In this document: one piece after another, positions 1-61,264 of the stretch
Position numbering within the stretch: the first letter of the stretch is position 1
Layout of the letters: each line of letters opens with the position of its first letter
Assembly: GCF_000341105.1 (NCBI RefSeq)
Contig: NZ_ANBB01000042.1
Span: 1-64,000 of the forward strand
Length of the DNA stretch: 64,000 nucleotides
Direction of reading: 5' to 3'
Source: Nocardiopsis potens DSM 45234
GTDB taxonomy: Bacteria; Actinomycetota; Actinomycetes; Streptosporangiales; Streptosporangiaceae
The notes under the pieces: model-generated
The model's input: only the letters and a program-made list of their open reading frames with translations
What the model was told of the DNA's origin: nothing
The model's database searches: none
Made by a program: the position numbers and the translations under genes

Positions 1-70
1 CATAAACTGCTCACGGCCTGAACGAACCAACCCGGTGTTGCGACGACCCCTAGAAACCGCCGCGTTGGTA

Positions 71-34077: not shown

Positions 34078-36924
34078 ATGCCGGCCATGCCGACGCTGCT
34101 GGACTTCTGCAGCGCGGAGGATTTCGCCGACCTCCTCACCCGAGCCCCCGCACTGGTGCGCCCCGTGCTCACGCGGAACCGCCGCCTCCCGGAACCCCTG
34201 GTCGAGGGCGCTTTCGCGGCGGGCGAGCCCGGTATCGCCGCCCTGCTCGATGCCAGGCGGATCGTGGAGAGGGACCCGGAGCTGCGGCGGAGGCTCGCCG
34301 CCACCGGCAGCCCCCTGGTGGCCGAGGCGATCTGCGGCGAGGACGACTCCGGGGAAGCGTGGTCCGAGCGCGAGTACGAGCTCCTGTTCGACTCCGCCGA
34401 CCCCGCCGACCCGCGCTGGCGTGCCCCCGCCGGCGCGGTCACCCGCCTGCTGCAGGCGGAGCCGGACGACGAGCACGGGGACCGGACGCTCCAGGAGGCC
34501 GCGCTCGGGTCGCCCTTCCCCGACCTGGTCCGGCACGCCCTGCGGCTGTGGGGCGGGGAACTGGAGCGCCGCGAGCTGCTCCGCGCGGTGCGGGCGCTGC
34601 TGCTGCACGGCGGCCCGGACGCGCTCCGGGAGGTGCTGGACGACCCCGGCCTGCGCTCCTGCTTCCCGGAACCGGTCCGGGACCTCGCCGAGCGCGCTCT
34701 GAAGAGCGAGGAGGGCGCGGCGGAGCTGCGCGCCGCCGCCGAACGGGCCGACGGGACCGGGGACGCCGTCGAGGAGCTGCGCGCGGCGGAGGCCGAGGAC
34801 GCGGACGGCGTCAACGCCGAGTGGGTCGAGGTGCGGCTGGAGGTGCGCGGCGGCGCCGACTGGGAGGTGCTGGCCGCCGCGCACCGCGAGCGCCCGTTCT
34901 GCCCCGCCGTCTCCGAGACCCTGGCCCGGCGGCCCGACTGCCCCGAGGAACTGCTGGCCGAACTGGTCTCCGGGGCCCCCGACCCCGACCGGTTCCTGAA
35001 GCGGATCGACCGGCCGCTGCCGCTGCGAGCGCTGGCCGTACTGCCGCGCACGGTCCCCACCGGGCTGCTGAGATGGGCGGTCTTCCAGGCCCGCCAGCGC
35101 GACCTCGGGCAGGGTGCCCCCGAAGAGGGAGCCGATTGGGCGGCGGTCGGCGCCGCCCACCGGGCCGAACCACTGCCCGAGGTCCTCATCGAATACCTCG
35201 CCGGACGCCCCGACTGCCCCGACGGGCTGCTCACCGAGCTGGTCGCGGCGCACGGCTCCCCCGACGAGCCGGCGCAGCGGATCGACCGGCCGCTGCCCGC
35301 GGCGGTCCTGGCCGCGCTGGCGGGCATCGTGTCGCCGCGAGTGGCGGCCGGCCTGCTCGCCCGGAGCCTGGGCCGCACCCTGACCGCCGGGGAACTGCTG
35401 GACGAGGTCCGCCCCGCCTCGGCCGCCCTGCAGGTCGGCGCGGCCCTCGCCGCCGGCGACGAGCGGGCCCGGGTCGAATGGGACGCCTTCGGCGGCGAAC
35501 TGGCCGCGCTGCTCGCCGACACGGTCGGCACCGACCCGGCGGCGTGGCGGGCGCTGCGCCGCCGGGTCGCCCGCGCCCGCGGAACCGTCGCAGAGCTGCT
35601 CGCCGACGCCGCCCGGAACCGGGGCGGGACGGCCGGCGGCCCCTGGCCCGACGCCGCCGGCATGCCCCCGGTGACCAAGTCCCGGCCGTACTCCCAGGCG
35701 CGGACCGCCTTCACCGCGCTGCTCGGTGCACTGCCCGCCGAGGACCAGGAGCGGATGCTGGACCGGGTGGACGACCGCACCGCCCACGACCTGTTCACCC
35801 AGGGGCGGTGGCGGGACGAATGGCCGGAGCGGATCCGGGCGGGGCGGCGAACGCGCGACGCGGTGGCGCTGTCCCGCCGCCCCGGGCTGCCGGCCGAGGC
35901 GGTCCGGGTCCTGGCGGAACTGGACGACCCGGCGGTCAACGCCGGGCTGCTCTACCAGGAGGCCGCGTCGCGCGAGGTGCGCGACGCGCTGCTGGCCGGC
36001 GTGCCGCTCGGCCCGGAGCACCCGGATCGGTCGGAGCGCCTGGCCCGGTCGGAGCACCCGGGCCGGCCCGAGCGCCTGCCGCTGGACCCCGGGTTCCGCG
36101 AGGAGCTGCTGAAGTGCGGGTCCTGGCGGTGGCTCTATCCGGTGGCCGGCTGCGGCGATCCGGACGTCCTCGACCGGATGGAGGCGAAGGAGCTGCGCAT
36201 GCACCGGCGCAGCCTGCGGCTGCGGATCCTGCTGGGGCTGTGGGAGCGGAACGGCCGCGACTGCTCCCCTCGGCACGAGGCCTTCTGCACCTCCCTGGTC
36301 CCGGAGGCGGACCGCGCCGAGGACGATGAGGAGGCGGTGGAGCTGGTTCGGACGGCGGTGGCCGAGGAGGAATCGGCCTGGAAACTGGTCAAGCGGCTGC
36401 GCAGCAGCTCCTGGAGGCTGGGACGGATCACCGCCGAGCGGTTCGACTGGGACTGGGGCGTGCTGCTGGAGGCGCACCTGCGCAGCCCGTTCGGCCTCTT
36501 CTGGGTCAAACAGCTCGCCGCGCTCCCCGACTGCCCCGAGCCGATCCGCGCCGGGGTGGGGCGGATGACCAAACCGGAGCAGCGCGTCTGGCAGCGCCTG
36601 GCCGAGGGGGCGCCGCCGGAGAAGGCACTGGCCAAGGTCGAGTTGTCATGGGAAAGGGGACCGGAGCGCCCGTGGCCGCTGTACGCTCTCGATCGGGGCG
36701 TGCTCACCCCGGCCGACCTGGTGCGACACGGCCGACCCGTCGGTACGCTGCTGGAGTTCGCGGGAATGGACGCCCGGGTCCGAGAGGCACTGGCCGAGGA
36801 GATGCGCCCCCTGGACGGCCGCCCGGAAGCCTGGATGCTCGCCCTGCAGATGCTGGACGGCTTCCAGGAGTCACTGCCGACTTTGGTGCGCACGGTGCTT
36901 CTGGTACTCGGCCTGGAGAAGTGA
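34078..36924 (+). CDS. LRV-repeat (leucine-rich repeat variant) protein, paralogue 2
   Basis: A 948-aa protein alignable end to end with the preceding gene: MPTLLDFCSAEDFADLLTRAP, a shared LFDSADPADPRW block near residue 105, shared ALGSPFPDLVRHALRLWG, and shared LLYQEA and KPEQR segments. Repeats again include RRPDCPEELLAELV and GRPDCPDGLLTELV. A 12-residue insertion near 655-670 repeats (L)ARSEHPGRPERL. ATG 34078 is chosen for AGGAAGAGG upstream; the frame is open to 33733 but that extension passes through the conserved element. A gene duplication that included the promoter is the simplest origin. Confidence 0.82.
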   Translation: MPAMPTLLDFCSAEDFADLLTRAPALVRPVLTRNRRLPEPLVEGAFAAGEPGIAALLDARRIVERDPELRRRLAATGSPLVAEAICGEDDSGEAWSEREYELLFDSADPADPRWRAPAGAVTRLLQAEPDDEHGDRTLQEAALGSPFPDLVRHALRLWGGELERRELLRAVRALLLHGGPDALREVLDDPGLRSCFPEPVRDLAERALKSEEGAAELRAAAERADGTGDAVEELRAAEAEDADGVNAEWVEVRLEVRGGADWEVLAAAHRERPFCPAVSETLARRPDCPEELLAELVSGAPDPDRFLKRIDRPLPLRALAVLPRTVPTGLLRWAVFQARQRDLGQGAPEEGADWAAVGAAHRAEPLPEVLIEYLAGRPDCPDGLLTELVAAHGSPDEPAQRIDRPLPAAVLAALAGIVSPRVAAGLLARSLGRTLTAGELLDEVRPASAALQVGAALAAGDERARVEWDAFGGELAALLADTVGTDPAAWRALRRRVARARGTVAELLADAARNRGGTAGGPWPDAAGMPPVTKSRPYSQARTAFTALLGALPAEDQERMLDRVDDRTAHDLFTQGRWRDEWPERIRAGRRTRDAVALSRRPGLPAEAVRVLAELDDPAVNAGLLYQEAASREVRDALLAGVPLGPEHPDRSERLARSEHPGRPERLPLDPGFREELLKCGSWRWLYPVAGCGDPDVLDRMEAKELRMHRRSLRLRILLGLWERNGRDCSPRHEAFCTSLVPEADRAEDDEEAVELVRTAVAEEESAWKLVKRLRSSSWRLGRITAERFDWDWGVLLEAHLRSPFGLFWVKQLAALPDCPEPIRAGVGRMTKPEQRVWQRLAEGAPPEKALAKVELSWERGPERPWPLYALDRGVLTPADLVRHGRPVGTLLEFAGMDARVREALAEEMRPLDGRPEAWMLALQMLDGFQESLPTLVRTVLLVLGLEK

Positions 36925-38299
36925 CCCCGCCCCGCCCGCCCGGACGTCCCCCCCGGGCGCGGCGTCTCGCGGGGCGAGGGTTCAGGCTGGCGGCGAGGGC
37001 GGGAGCGGGACCGGCCGGCCGGTCGGGCGCGGCGCCTCGCGGGGTGAAGGTTCAGACCAGCGGCGACGGCGGGAAGGGGGACCGGTCGGTCGGGCGCGGC
37101 GTCTCGCGGAGCGAACGTTCAGACGGCAGCGAGGGCGGGAGGAGGGACCGGTCGGTCGGGTGCGGCGCCCCACGGAGCGAAGGTGCAAACCGGCGGCGAC
37201 GGCAAGGGGAGGGGCGGGGCGGAGGCGGTCGCCCGGGTGCGGCGCCTCACGGGGTCAGGGTTCAAGCGGGCGGCAAAGGCGGGAGAGGGGCGGGGCGCCG
37301 CGTTCACCGGCCAGGCCCGGCGCATGCTCCCGCCAGGGGGTGGCCTTATCCCCTATGCCGGGTTCGCGGCGAGGGACGGGCGGGCGCGGGGGCGCCCTGC
37401 GCACCGCGAGAGCACCCCGATTACATCTACCAGCGAGTAGTAAGCCCCCAGACCCCCACCACCCCCTCACCGATCACCCAGAGTGGCCAAGCAGGGTCTT
37501 CCCAGGGGGACAAAAGCGACATCTCGCCCCCGCGTCGCCCCTGCTCGGGTTCCGGCCTCCTGCTTTGCGGCCTTGCGGGCGGCTCGAACCCCTCACCACC
37601 GGCCCGACCGGAGCGATTCGGGGCTTCCGGGGCCCGATCCGGGCCGGGATGTGCGCCCGGGAATCACCGGGGTGCTCTCGCGGTGCGCAGGGCGCCCCAC
37701 CCCGCCATCACCCTACGTATTCGCCCAGGTCAGAGAGGGGTGGCGGTTTCAGGGCGGCCGGCCACGGCGCCCGGGCGGCACGGGAACGGCGAACCGGCCA
37801 CCCCGGCCCGCCCCGACCACTCCCGCCCTGCTCTGCCGCACCCGACCGACCGGCCGGTGCCCCTGCCCGCCTTTGCCGCCCGCTTGAGCCCCGGCCCCGT
37901 GGGGCGCCGCGCCGGACCGACCGGCCGGTGCCCACTGCCGCCTTCGCTGCCTGCTTGAACCTCCGCCCCGTGGGGCCCGCGCCCGGGCGACGCCTGCACC
38001 CCGCCCCCACCGCCGCCGTCGCCGCCTGTCTGAACCTTCGCTCTGCGGGGCGCCGCGCCGGACCGACCAGCCGGTGCCCCTCCCCGCCCTCGCCGCTGGT
38101 CTGAACCTTTGCTCTGTGGGGCGTCGCACTCGACTGACTGGCCGGCATGCCCTCTTCCTGCCGTCGTCCCGCCTTCGCTGCCTGCTTGAACCCTGGCCTC
38201 GTGGGGTGCCGTGCTCAGGTGGGGCGCCTGGCCCTGCCGGGGTGGTCGGGGCCGGGGTCGGGCGGGGGCGGCGGCTCCGTCTGGGCTCGGTGTTCCGCT
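36925..38299. repeat. Large repeat element, full copy A: inverted tandem arrays around an IR core
   Basis: This 1.4-kb gene-free region lies between the convergent LRV2 and caspase genes. From about 36960 to 37290, units containing GCGGCGACGGCG and TCGGGCGCGGCG run in one orientation. From about 37830 to 38230 the same units run in the opposite orientation (landmark TGA at 37884, 37956, 38031, 38102, 38188; spacings 71-85). Between them is a core with 31-bp inverted repeats. The same arrangement recurs at 55.6-57.4 kb. Frames through it translate to low-complexity Pro/Arg sequence and lack ribosome binding sites. Confidence 0.75.
37389..37698. repeat. Core of repeat element A, bounded by perfect 31-bp inverted repeats
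   Basis: The 31 bases at 37389-37419 (starting GGGGCGCCCTGCGCACCGCG) are the exact reverse complement of 37668-37698, with 248 bases between. Just inside the left arm, 37421-37443 is an imperfect palindrome beginning TTACATC and ending GAGTAGTAA. The interior also carries CAAAAGCGACATCTCGCCC. Copy B at 56341-56651 keeps the arms perfect although the interior has drifted. No reading frame resembles a transposase. Confidence 0.8.
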
Positions 38300-40288
38300 T
38301 CAGCGGAGGTCGAGGGCGAAGGAGTAGACCCGGGTGGACTGGGCGGGGCGGCCGTTGTTGTCGGCGATCAGGTACAGGGAGCGGTGGCCCGCCAGGTCGG
38401 GGTCGTCCGCGTCGGCGCGGCCCAGCTCGGGGCCGAGGGCCATCCCCTCGACGTTCTGCAGCAGCTGGTTGGGCTGGGTCTCCTCGGAGGTGATGTCGCC
38501 TTCGGGGCAGTTCGCCATGTCGAACAGGAGCGTCTTGGAGACCAGCAGGTCGGTGGCGTTCCAGTCGAGGACCTCGCCGGTGACGTCGTCGGCGCCGCCG
38601 AGGTCGATCTCGAAGACGCGGATGCCGTTCCCCAGGCCGCTGAGGTATCCGCGCTCCAGCGCGAGCAGCCGATCCTCGTCGATCGCCGCCAGTTCGACCA
38701 GGTAGAGGCCCACCTCCGTCTGGTAGCCGAACTGCCGGTCGAGGGTGTAGTCGCCGCCGGGCTCGCCCTGGTAGCGCTGGATGCGCACCTGGTGGCGGCC
38801 GTGCACGTCGTAGTCGCCGAGGATCGGGCCCTCCATGCCCGCGTACAGGTAGGCGCCGTCCGGGGTGGCGGCCAGGGCCTCGAGGCTGCGGCCGCTCTGG
38901 GCGTTGCCGTCCGGTGAGTAGCGGAACTCTTCGGGCAGCGGCAGCGGATCGCCCACCTGGCGCCCGTCCTCGATCCGGAAGCGGCGGACGGCCGGCCCGC
39001 TCTCGGAGGAGGCCAGAACGGTCTCCCCGCCGTTCTCCAGGACCAGCCCCTCGCCGTCGAACTTGGTGAACCGGTCGCCGTTCTCCTGATACAGCATCTG
39101 CAGCCCGGTGACGGAGGGCTCCAAGGACCCGGGACCTCCCAGGGACAGGGAGAAGACCTGGGCCGGCTCGTTGTCGCGCAGTGCCAGCGCCGCGCCGCCC
39201 TCGCCGGCCAGGGCGAGGGCGGACAGCCCTTCCACGCGGCTGCCCATGTGCTCGTTCTCCGGTGCGCGGTCGAGGTCGTCGGAGACGTCGAGGATGACCG
39301 CCTTCCCGTCGCCGCCGCAGGGACCGGGGATGGAGGCGGTGTTCCCGGCGTCCGCCCGGATCCGGTCGTGGGCGGTGAAGCCGCCGACCGCGCCGGCGGC
39401 CAGGCCGAGGACACCGGTCACCGCAGCGGCGGCGAGCACGGTGCGGCGGGAGTGCCCCGCCGGGGCCGGCGGCGGAGGGAACGCCTTCCGGTTGCGCACG
39501 AACGGCAGATCGCCGACGCCGTTGTGGTCCAGCCCCTGCGGTTCGGGGAGCCCCTTGGCGACGAGTCTCTTCTTCACCAGCTGGTGGATGCGGTCCAGGG
39601 AGAGCCCCTCGGCGCCCGGGTTCTCGGGGTCCCCTTGGTTCAGCACCTCGATGAGCGCACCGGTGAAGGAGGTGTGGGTCTCCGTCGGCGGAGCGTCGGA
39701 CGGGGCGCTGCCGGTGGTGGAGGTCAGCACGTAGGAGCCGTCGATCTCCACCTGGCGGGGCCGGGGGAGCCGGGCGCCGTCCCCGGCGGCCATCGCGCCG
39801 GTCTCCAGCGCCCTGCCGCTGAAGCAGCAGTCGAGGATCAGGATGCGCCGCCTGGCGTGCCTTCCGGACTCCTTCAGGATCTCGCGGAGCCGGCGGAACT
39901 CCAGCGCGGTCTCCCAACGCCCGCTGATCATGCTGGTCGGGGTCAGGTGGAGCTGCTCGTCCCAACCGAGCAGCCCGTGTCCGGCGTAGTAGACGACCAG
40001 GGCGTCCTCGGCCAGTTCGGCGGTCTCGTAGATCGGCCCGGTGAGGTCGCCGGGGGAGGCGGGATCGAGCACCGTCTTGATCCGGCTCTCGGGGACGCCC
40101 CAGATCTCCGGGTCGGCCAGGGCGCGTTTCAGATCGGTGACGCTGCGCCGGACGGAGGGCAGCGGTGGGAGCGATTCGTAGCCGCCGACCCCGATCAGCA
40201 CGCACGCAGACCGGGCGGGGTCGATCCGGTCACCGGGACCGTTCGGCCTGCTGTTCTCCTCCGCCTCCGAGCGGTCCTGCCCGCTCAT
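38300..40288 (-). CDS. Caspase-like protease fused to a phytase-like beta-propeller domain
   Basis: This 662-aa protein has an N-terminal peptidase C14 (caspase/metacaspase) domain (about 25-250): SACVLIGVGGYE, the catalytic His104 in VVYYAGHG and the catalytic Cys155 in ILDCCFSG. A Pro-rich linker and a single membrane segment (about 283-305) follow, then a domain of about 340 residues resembling 'esterase-like activity of phytase' (VEGLSALAL, DGAYLYAGMEGP, NVEGMALGP, LYLIADNN). The membrane segment would put caspase inside and propeller outside, or anchor both. ATG 40288 overlaps the stop of the EACC1 gene. Caspases with EACC partners are predicted immune or cell-death effectors. Confidence 0.9.
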   Translation of the reverse strand: MSGQDRSEAEENSRPNGPGDRIDPARSACVLIGVGGYESLPPLPSVRRSVTDLKRALADPEIWGVPESRIKTVLDPASPGDLTGPIYETAELAEDALVVYYAGHGLLGWDEQLHLTPTSMISGRWETALEFRRLREILKESGRHARRRILILDCCFSGRALETGAMAAGDGARLPRPRQVEIDGSYVLTSTTGSAPSDAPPTETHTSFTGALIEVLNQGDPENPGAEGLSLDRIHQLVKKRLVAKGLPEPQGLDHNGVGDLPFVRNRKAFPPPPAPAGHSRRTVLAAAAVTGVLGLAAGAVGGFTAHDRIRADAGNTASIPGPCGGDGKAVILDVSDDLDRAPENEHMGSRVEGLSALALAGEGGAALALRDNEPAQVFSLSLGGPGSLEPSVTGLQMLYQENGDRFTKFDGEGLVLENGGETVLASSESGPAVRRFRIEDGRQVGDPLPLPEEFRYSPDGNAQSGRSLEALAATPDGAYLYAGMEGPILGDYDVHGRHQVRIQRYQGEPGGDYTLDRQFGYQTEVGLYLVELAAIDEDRLLALERGYLSGLGNGIRVFEIDLGGADDVTGEVLDWNATDLLVSKTLLFDMANCPEGDITSEETQPNQLLQNVEGMALGPELGRADADDPDLAGHRSLYLIADNNGRPAQSTRVYSFALDLR

Positions 40289-55226: not shown

Positions 55227-55583
55227 ATGGAAAGCGGTGATGAGGTGGCCACCGAGGAGAGCAAGGCCTCCTACGGTCCCGGCGGGCGGGGCTTCTACGG
55301 CGCCGTGACGGTCAGCGAGCGGGGCCAGATCGTGATCCCGGCCCAGGCCCGCCGGGACCTGGGCATCGCCCCCGGCACCAAGCTCCTCGTCCTCGGCGAC
55401 CCCGAGCAGGGGCTGGCCCTGATGACCCTCGACCGCTTGATGAGCAACCTCCAGGGTGCGAGCGGACTCCTCGCCGAGCTGCAGAAGCACGCCCAGGGCG
55501 GGGCCGGCGAGGCCGGCGGGCCCGGTGAGTCCGGCGGGCCGGAGGACGGCGGGGGCGGCGAGAGCGCCGGCGCCCCCGAGTAG
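55227..55583 (+). CDS. AbrB/SpoVT-type DNA-binding domain protein
   Basis: A roughly 118-aa protein. A swapped-hairpin AbrB domain (YGAVTVSERGQIVIPAQARRDLGIAPGTKLLVLGD) is followed by a helix and a Gly/Glu-rich low-complexity tail. Such proteins are dimeric DNA-binding regulators or antitoxins. The start is uncertain: ATG 55227 is assumed, ATG 55185 lies in promoter-like A/T-rich DNA, and GTG 55245 is also possible. No toxin gene is adjacent; the divergent DUF418 gene is the likely target. Confidence 0.8.
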   Translation: MESGDEVATEESKASYGPGGRGFYGAVTVSERGQIVIPAQARRDLGIAPGTKLLVLGDPEQGLALMTLDRLMSNLQGASGLLAELQKHAQGGAGEAGGPGESGGPEDGGGGESAGAPE

Positions 55584-55639: not shown

Positions 55640-57390
55640 TGGTCTCGCCGCAGCCGAGCGCGGCGCCCCACGGGGCCAGGGTTCAAGCAGGCGGCGACGG
55701 CGCAGGCAGGGCCGGGGCGGGGGTGGTCGCCCGAGCGCGGCGCCTCACGGGGTGAGGGTTCAGGCCGGCAGCGACGGCAGCGGTGGGGACCGGCCGGTCG
55801 GTTCGGCGCGGGGCCTCGCGGAGCGAAGGTCAAGGCGGGCAGCGATGGCGCAGGTAGGAACCGGGCCCGGCGTCTCACCTGGGCGCGGCGCCCCGCAGAG
55901 CGGAGGTTCGAACGGGCGGCGAGGGGGACCGGCCGGTCGGTCGGCGCGGCACCCCACGGAGCGAAGGTCAAGACGAGCGGCGACGGCGCAGGTGGGAACC
56001 GGGCCCGGCGCCCCACCCGGGCACGGCGTCTCACGGGGCCGGGGTTCAAACCGGCGGCGACGGTAGCGGTGGGGACCGGCCGGTCGGTTCGGCGCGGCGC
56101 CCCACGGGGCGAAGGCTCAAACCGGCGGCGACGGCGAGGGTAGGGCCGGGGCGCAGGCCCCACCCGGGCGCGGCGCCTCGCGGAGCGGAGGTTCAAGCAG
56201 GCGGCGACGGCAGCGGTGGGGAGCGGGGCGGAGGCGGCCGCCCGGGCGCGGCGCCCCGGCGGTGCGGGTGGGCCTGCCCGAGCCGAGCAGGGTGGTCATA
56301 TCCCCTATGCCGGGTTCGCGGCAGGGAACAGGCAGGGGCGGGGGCGCCCTGCGCACCGCGAGAGCACCCCGATTACATCTACCAGCGAGTAGTAAGCCCC
56401 GAAGCTCCCACCACCCCCTCACCGGTCACCCAGAGTGACCCAAGTGGGTCCTCCCGGCAGGGCAAAAGCGACATCTCGCCCTCACCCCTGCCTCTCCTGG
56501 GTTTCGGCCCCCCTGCATCCCGGTCTTGCGGGTGGCTCGAACCCCCGAACACCGGCCCGATCAGGGCGAATCAGGGCCTCAGGGGCCCGATCCGGCCCAG
56601 GGTGCGCGCCTGGGAATCACCGGGGTGCTCTCGCGGTGCGCAGGGCGCCCCTCCCCGCCATCACCGTGGGTATTCGCCCAGGTCAGGGAGGGGGAGCGGT
56701 TTCAGGGGCGGCCGGCCCCGGCGCCCGGGCGGCGCGGGCACGGCGATCCCGCCCCCACTGCCCGCCCCGACCACTCCCGCCCTGCTCTGCCGCACCCGAC
56801 CGACCGGCCGGTCCCCCACCCGCCGTCGCCGCCCGCTTGAGCCCCGGCCCCGTGGGGCCCGGCGCCCGGGCGATTGCCTTTGCCCCGCCCCTGCCGGCGC
56901 CGTCGCCGCCCGTCTTGACCTTCGCTCCGCGGAGCGCCGCGCCCGACCGACCGGCCGGTCCCCCACCGCCGCCTTCGCCGCCCGCCTGAACCCCGGCCCC
57001 GTGGGGCGCCGTGCCCGGGCGACTCCCGTACCCCGGCCCTACCTTCACCGTCGCCGCCCGTCTGAACCTTCGCCCCGTGGGGCGCCGCGCCTGACCGACC
57101 GGCCGGTGCCCCACCCGCCTTCGCCGCCCGCCTGAACCCCGGCCCTGTGGGGTGCCGCGCTCGGCTGGGGCGCTCGGCCCGTCCCTACCTCTGCCGTCGC
57201 CGCCTGTTTGAAGCTTCGCTCTGCGGGGTGCCGCGCCGGCCCGATCGGCCGGCCTCCCTCCCGCCCTCGCCGCCTGCTTGGACCTTCGCCCCGTGGGGTG
57301 CCGGGCTCGGGTGGTGGGCCTTGCTCTGTCTCTACCTGCGCCGTTGTCGCCGGTCGTGGTCCGTCCGGCCGGGAGTGGGGCCGGGGCCGT
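55640..57390. repeat. Large repeat element, full copy B
   Basis: This second full copy of the element at 36925-38299 lies between the convergent AbrB-like and zinc-ribbon genes. The left array (about 55670-56280) has units with GGTTCAAGCAGGCGGCGACGG and GACCGGCCGGTCGG alternating; the right array (about 56800-57350) has the inverse units. The left array is longer than in copy A (about eight units against four or five), so unit number varies. No gene is supported in 55584-57394; frames are low-complexity. Confidence 0.75.
56341..56651. repeat. Core of repeat element B, bounded by perfect 31-bp inverted repeats
   Basis: 56341-56371 and 56621-56651 are perfect reverse complements and equal to the arms of copy A. 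The 249-base interior aligns with copy A; in place of A's TGGCCAAGCAGGGTC it has GACCCAAGTGGGTC, which could form a small hairpin. The TTACATC...GAGTAGTAA palindrome is kept at 56373-56395. Homology extends left beyond the arm (ATCCCCTATGCCGGGTTCGC in both copies) and right of it (ATTCGCCCAGGTCAG). Confidence 0.8.
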
Positions 57391-61114: not shown

Positions 61115-61205
61115 GCTCCCCCTCGTCGGTCGGGTCGTTCATCGGGACGGCCCGCCCTCCCGCCGGAGCGGGGAGGCGGGCCCGGGGCGGTGATCCCGGC
61201 GCTGC

Positions 61206-61237
61206 GCGGGGGCATCGGAGCGCTCTGATGCCCCCGC
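61206..61237. terminator. Hairpin terminator downstream of the PKS/ACP operon
   Basis: GCGGGGGCATC (61206-61216) pairs with GATGCCCCCGC (61227-61237); the stem extends inward by G-T, G-C, A-T and G-C pairs, leaving a two-base loop. It begins about 28 bases after the ACP stop in the direction of transcription (minus strand). Confidence 0.7.
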
Positions 61238-61264
61238 GGCGCCGAGACCATCGGGGAGAGCGGA

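Follow-up and report, generated by a model that had tools for sequence, protein, structure and literature searches.

Between a plus-strand gene that ends at 36924 and a minus-strand gene that ends at 38300, two tandem arrays face each other across a short core, and the question raised by this locus is what kind of element has such a layout and how it came to be there. The window, the whole 64-kb stretch of DNA that was analysed, is contig C42 of the own genome (G000), which is 6.91 Mb long and assembled in 133 contigs. The genome of a sister species (G004; 7.4 Mb in 3 contigs) shares about 92% nucleotide identity with it where the two can be aligned. The foldback architecture of the element is well supported. 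On balance, it is probably a long, gene-free, non-autonomous foldback-like mobile element with ends of IS30 type; its membership of an IS30-derived family is tentative, because most copies, including the one at 36953-38219, are without recognisable ends.

Opposed arrays around a conserved core

The element at 36953-38219 spans 1.27 kb and comprises five plus units, a 310-bp core and five minus units. The left array (36953-37289, +) was delimited by a unit profile and by its direct repeats, and its five units (36953-37011, 37020-37082, 37086-37148, 37152-37214 and 37229-37289) run toward the core. In an alignment of 30 central modules from the own genome, the left inner arm that joins array to core (37290-37388, +) is kept among copies, and the right inner arm (CCATCACCCTGCGTATTCACCCAGGTCAG...; 37699-37860, +) is strongly kept. 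The core (37389-37698, +) has perfect 31-nt inverted ends at 37389-37419 and 37668-37698. The right array (37861-38219, −), inverted with respect to the left, again has five units in the unit profile: 37861-37920, 37929-37990, 38004-38066, 38076-38137 and 38168-38219. Open reading frames across the element gave no Pfam family match. The gene adjoining it at 38300-40288 (−) encodes a 662-aa protein with caspase-like (Peptidase_C14) and Phytase-like domains.

A second complete element in the window lies at 55652-57311 (+) and is 1.66 kb long, with eight plus units, a core at 56341-56651 and seven minus units; its outer ends are not recognisable either. Beside it, 55245-55583 (+) encodes a 112-aa protein with a weak match to the MazE antitoxin. 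At the contig start the unit profile found half an element, made up of five minus units (147-482, −).

The opposed arrays that an earlier note had reported around the core are present far beyond chance. Across 77 core-bearing elements of the own and sister genomes, all 759 units face the core (378 plus units on the left, 381 minus units on the right, none reversed), and among the 38 arrays found in contiguous stretches of the own genome (1.56 Mb in total) the order is +++core--- wherever both sides are present. The two alternating fillers of the earlier note hold on alignment, with filler types changing at 184 of 250 neighbouring transitions against 49% expected, and the number of units does differ between copies, from 1 to 11 per side. 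Unit spacing alternates between ~70 and ~77 bp, and TRF returned periods of ~66-77 bp and, for the dimer, ~133-146 bp. GC palindromes do not recur in every unit as had been claimed: GGCGCC is present in 220 and ACCGGCCGGT in 119 of 339 units. The proposed extent of 1.4-1.8 kb suits the second copy in the window and is too long for the element at 36953-38219.

About 100 cores are present genome-wide: counts of the core end on the two strands were 103 and 94, and a reversed control gave 1 and 0. When the element region was searched against the whole genome, 283 matches were returned. Core length is nearly constant at about 299-311 bp, and motifs such as CTACCAGCGAGTAG and ACCCAGAGTGGC are kept across both species. 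Mean mutual identity is 86% among own cores and 70% among sister cores, and some pairs within the sister genome are nearly identical (up to 99.4%). Among six genomes of the genus, the element was found in the own genome and in the sister genome, which has at least 40 cores; the other four gave short background matches only, as did another 293 genomes from the family. The element family is confined to two species among the 299 family genomes searched. Plasmids and phages were searched without a match. A pattern scan of GTDB, which may leave out near relatives, returned a single match (L195), which comes from a Saccharibacteria MAG and is probably due to chance.

These observations agree with a non-autonomous element of the MITE kind, in that there is no transposase gene inside and there are about 100 copies, and with a foldback element, in that long inverted repeats of tandem units, variable in number, enclose a middle part. 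The window alone does not reveal that the element belongs to a family of about 100 members, some of which have transposon-like ends.

Outer arms, palindromes and an IS30-type end

Some arrays run on into one of two arms, A or B (~60 bp), and then into half of a 64-bp palindrome. In the window this is seen at the half element, where outer arm B, an IS30-like inverted end (519-544, −), adjoins a palindrome half (545-577, −). Of the elements scored, 14 of 33 in the own genome and 3 of 29 in the sister genome have recognisable ends (arms and/or palindrome halves), so that over half of the own copies and 26 of the 29 sister copies are without them. An element with ends lies centrally in the palindrome, and in most cases CAGAGCG flanks both sides, so that the palindrome's central CG is present twice. 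Palindrome halves that flank one element resembled each other no more than halves taken from different elements did (n=7, p=0.28), and the possession of ends was not linked to a younger core (p=0.40). A fixed position of arm B to the left of the core was rejected, since the orientation of the core relative to the arms is one way in 8 cases and the other in 7; one element, C27:69732, has arm A at both ends.

The palindrome also occurs alone, in 28 solo copies in 1.56 Mb of own sequence (C47:148735-148798, C2:148433-148496, C27:187888-187951 and about 25 more). Its exact pattern was found 56 times in the own genome, 20 times in the sister genome and not at all in 58 other genomes. The window holds one diverged solo copy of the family at 61190-61253 (no strand assigned), recognised by a profile match at 61221-61253 together with the sequence, its left boundary being approximate; it lies 11 bp from the stop codon of the downstream minus-strand gene. 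The arms of solo palindromes covary with double-sided changes (2.06 mismatches within copies vs 7.09 across copies; 0/5000 permutations), and in being a dispersed extragenic palindrome with conserved pairing the solo palindrome is REP-like. Such copies are possibly mobile hairpins or hairpin terminators.

The first 61 nucleotides of the window (1-61, +), at the contig edge and at a palindrome centre, are the right end of an IS30-family element, and the adjoining palindrome half lies at 60-93 (−). In the sister-genome copy of this element (L231), an IS110 element interrupts a transposase gene of IS30 type, and the best-annotated plasmid relatives are named IS30 family transposase. An intact IS30 transposase gene was not found in either assembly, and the own genome has the right end only, at three contig edges, the gene body being unassembled or absent. 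These IS30 ends adjoin halves of the same 64-bp palindrome on own contigs C42 and C50 and at L231 and L232 of the sister genome; the third own copy, on C64, does not.

Arm A matches the IS30 right end (0/5000 shuffles) and resembles arm B (p=0.004), which itself matches the IS30 left end weakly (p=0.04). In E. coli, IS30 is reported to use the central 2 bp of nearly palindromic hot spots (PMC9333248). Where the present element has ends, its position would likewise suit insertion into a palindromic target at the central 2 bp, and its arm A is like the right end carried by the IS30-family element in these genomes. It differs in lacking a transposase gene, in having ~1-1.7 kb of arrays and core instead, and in that most copies are without recognisable ends.

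Other candidates for the mobiliser were set aside. An IS110 element was rejected on the absence of a PF01548 match from the own assembly and on the IS30-type nature of the end at window 1-61. Matches to HTH_38 were rejected as IS30 transposases, since the ends are missing from all nine loci and the three inspected (L196, L197 and L200) seem to encode other proteins. Two further features were seen at the sister-genome IS30 copies. In two different IS30-family copies (L231, 2369-4466, and L232) an IS110-family element whose gene is identical occupies the same position, suggesting that its insertion into the IS30 gene was targeted. At L231 4470-4511, beside the IS30 end, arms A and B are joined directly (~42 bp) without arrays or core, as either a minimal form or a joined-end remnant.

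In the mechanism that we favour, a full-length element would consist of an outer arm, inward-facing units, the 310-bp core with its 31-nt inverted ends, inverted units and the other outer arm. An IS30-family transposase would act on the outer arms, A being like the IS30 right end and B perhaps like the left, and insertion would take place in dispersed 64-bp palindromes a short way downstream of genes, at their central CG. Later, the opposed arrays would provide homology for recombination, by which unit numbers change, cores flip and copies exchange sequence, and copies such as that at 36953-38219 would have lost their outer ends.

Comparison with the sister species

Several loci are occupied in one species only. 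The sister genome has no array opposite own C27:138278, 191927, 94938 and 21642, and the own genome has none opposite G004:394699, 433808, L251 and L257. The evidence for mobility is this presence and absence between two species. Clean empty sites are unreadable between the species, as intergenic DNA hardly aligns, and a target duplication could not be read from them.

Six element loci are common to both species. At four with comparable cores, core identity is 64-80%, and that of the flanks is mostly about 91-95%. A shared split element (C2:242156/L240; G000:C2:241789-244980), in which about 2 kb separates the core from the right array, is unlike these in keeping 94.5% core identity, and at the sixth locus, L237, no core comparison is possible. 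Only one flank of the sister element at L237 matches the flank of the own element at G000:C46:121198-122840, and a synteny break exactly at the element is possible there.

These values bear on a less likely account, in which arrays and core are an older repeat family spread by ectopic recombination, gene conversion or a transposase acting on other ends, and only a subset gained IS30-type arms and palindromes. The many copies without arms, the low core identity at the four shared loci beside the well-kept core of the split element, and the near-identical core pairs within the sister genome all speak for it. However, gene conversion alone leaves unexplained the copies whose sites have no array in the sister species, and those arms that do occur are IS30-like and lie at the centres of palindromes. 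Separate insertions into a shared palindrome could also account for non-orthologous cores at shared sites; such insertions and exchange between copies would both explain the low core identity.

The proposal that the arrays change by recombination is borne out by the varying unit numbers, by the 8:7 core orientation, by the element with the same arm at both ends and by the greater difference between species in cores than in flanks at shared loci. Recombination between opposed arrays would account for the core flips and the same-arm element, as far as static assemblies can indicate. It is doubtful that the whole family is a multi-copy invertible system, of foldback type and possibly adopted by the host, in which opposed arrays at about 100 sites let the 310-bp core flip or be exchanged between copies.

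Possible host roles and known systems

Somewhat more doubtful still is a chromosomal element used by the host, for example in nucleoid-protein binding, as a domain boundary or as a topological buffer, and kept by selection at about 100 sites. Its strict architecture and the core motifs kept in both species would suit such a role, and within nine contigs no interval is below 12.5 kb. Yet the element is missing from four of the six genus genomes and from the remaining family, it is present or absent site by site between the sisters, and strictly regular spacing is contradicted by core ends 4.9 kb (C28) and 7.4 kb (C37) apart elsewhere in the genome.

A role in 3'-end formation, also raised by the earlier note, fits the solo palindromes: they lie a median of 19.5 bp from a stop codon, mostly within 60 bp, none of the 28 is between divergent genes, and their arms covary. 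It does not clearly fit the arrays, of which 10 lie between convergent, 18 between codirectional and 4 between divergent genes, so that placement only between convergent genes was rejected. Moreover, none of the palindromes mapped with their flanks to the other species (4 own, 7 sister) has a counterpart in the stretch compared, where intergenic DNA hardly aligns. That arrays and palindromes together serve transcription ends of neighbouring genes is improbable.

The constant length and conserved motifs of the core might point to a structured RNA with the arrays as accessories, a reading we regard as highly improbable. An Rfam search gave no match and double-sided changes in own cores were not above shuffles, by which an RNA gene in the core was rejected. 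Sister cores were marginal at most in one of two folds, and a mixed own and sister set exceeded shuffles, as expected from its two groups. A pairing constraint on the core ends was rejected, with no covariation found (p=0.5). The search of the element for a protein, a known RNA family or a clear conserved structure found none. An assembly artefact, which the several own contigs that end inside cores or arrays might suggest, is hardly credible, since the same layout, without the collapse or expansion that the earlier note had considered, is found in about 30 elements of the 3-contig sister genome. The elements do account for breaks in the short-read assembly of the own genome, because contigs end in them.

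The favoured reading, a gene-free foldback-like mobile element, can be placed beside several known systems. MIRU-type repeats of mycobacteria lie in tandem between genes, in units of tens of bp whose copy number varies. The present element shares with them intergenic units of variable number and differs in that every copy has its units in two opposed arrays, one on each side of a conserved core. Like REP/REPIN palindromes, which are targeted by IS elements of families listed as IS3, IS110, IS4, IS256 and IS5 (PMC1525189, PMC3116915), the palindromes described here are dispersed, extragenic, near gene 3' ends and targets of insertion, but each is a single near-perfect 64-bp palindrome. Foldback and Galileo of Drosophila resemble the element in that a middle part is enclosed by long inverted ends, inside which tandem repeats vary in number, in that many copies are non-autonomous and in that copies show signs of exchange; these transposons are eukaryotic and belong to another transposase superfamily (P element for Galileo) (PMC3573991). 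Its alternating units, IS30-like outer arms and bacterial host set the present element apart.

To our knowledge, foldback-type mobile architecture is known only from eukaryotes (animals and plants), and the element looks like a bacterial counterpart of their foldback transposons. A bacterial foldback family of about 100 copies, in palindromes also used by an IS30-type element and in two sister species only, would be a young system and would allow direct study of how targets are chosen, how tandem arrays grow and how opposed repeats bring about inversion.
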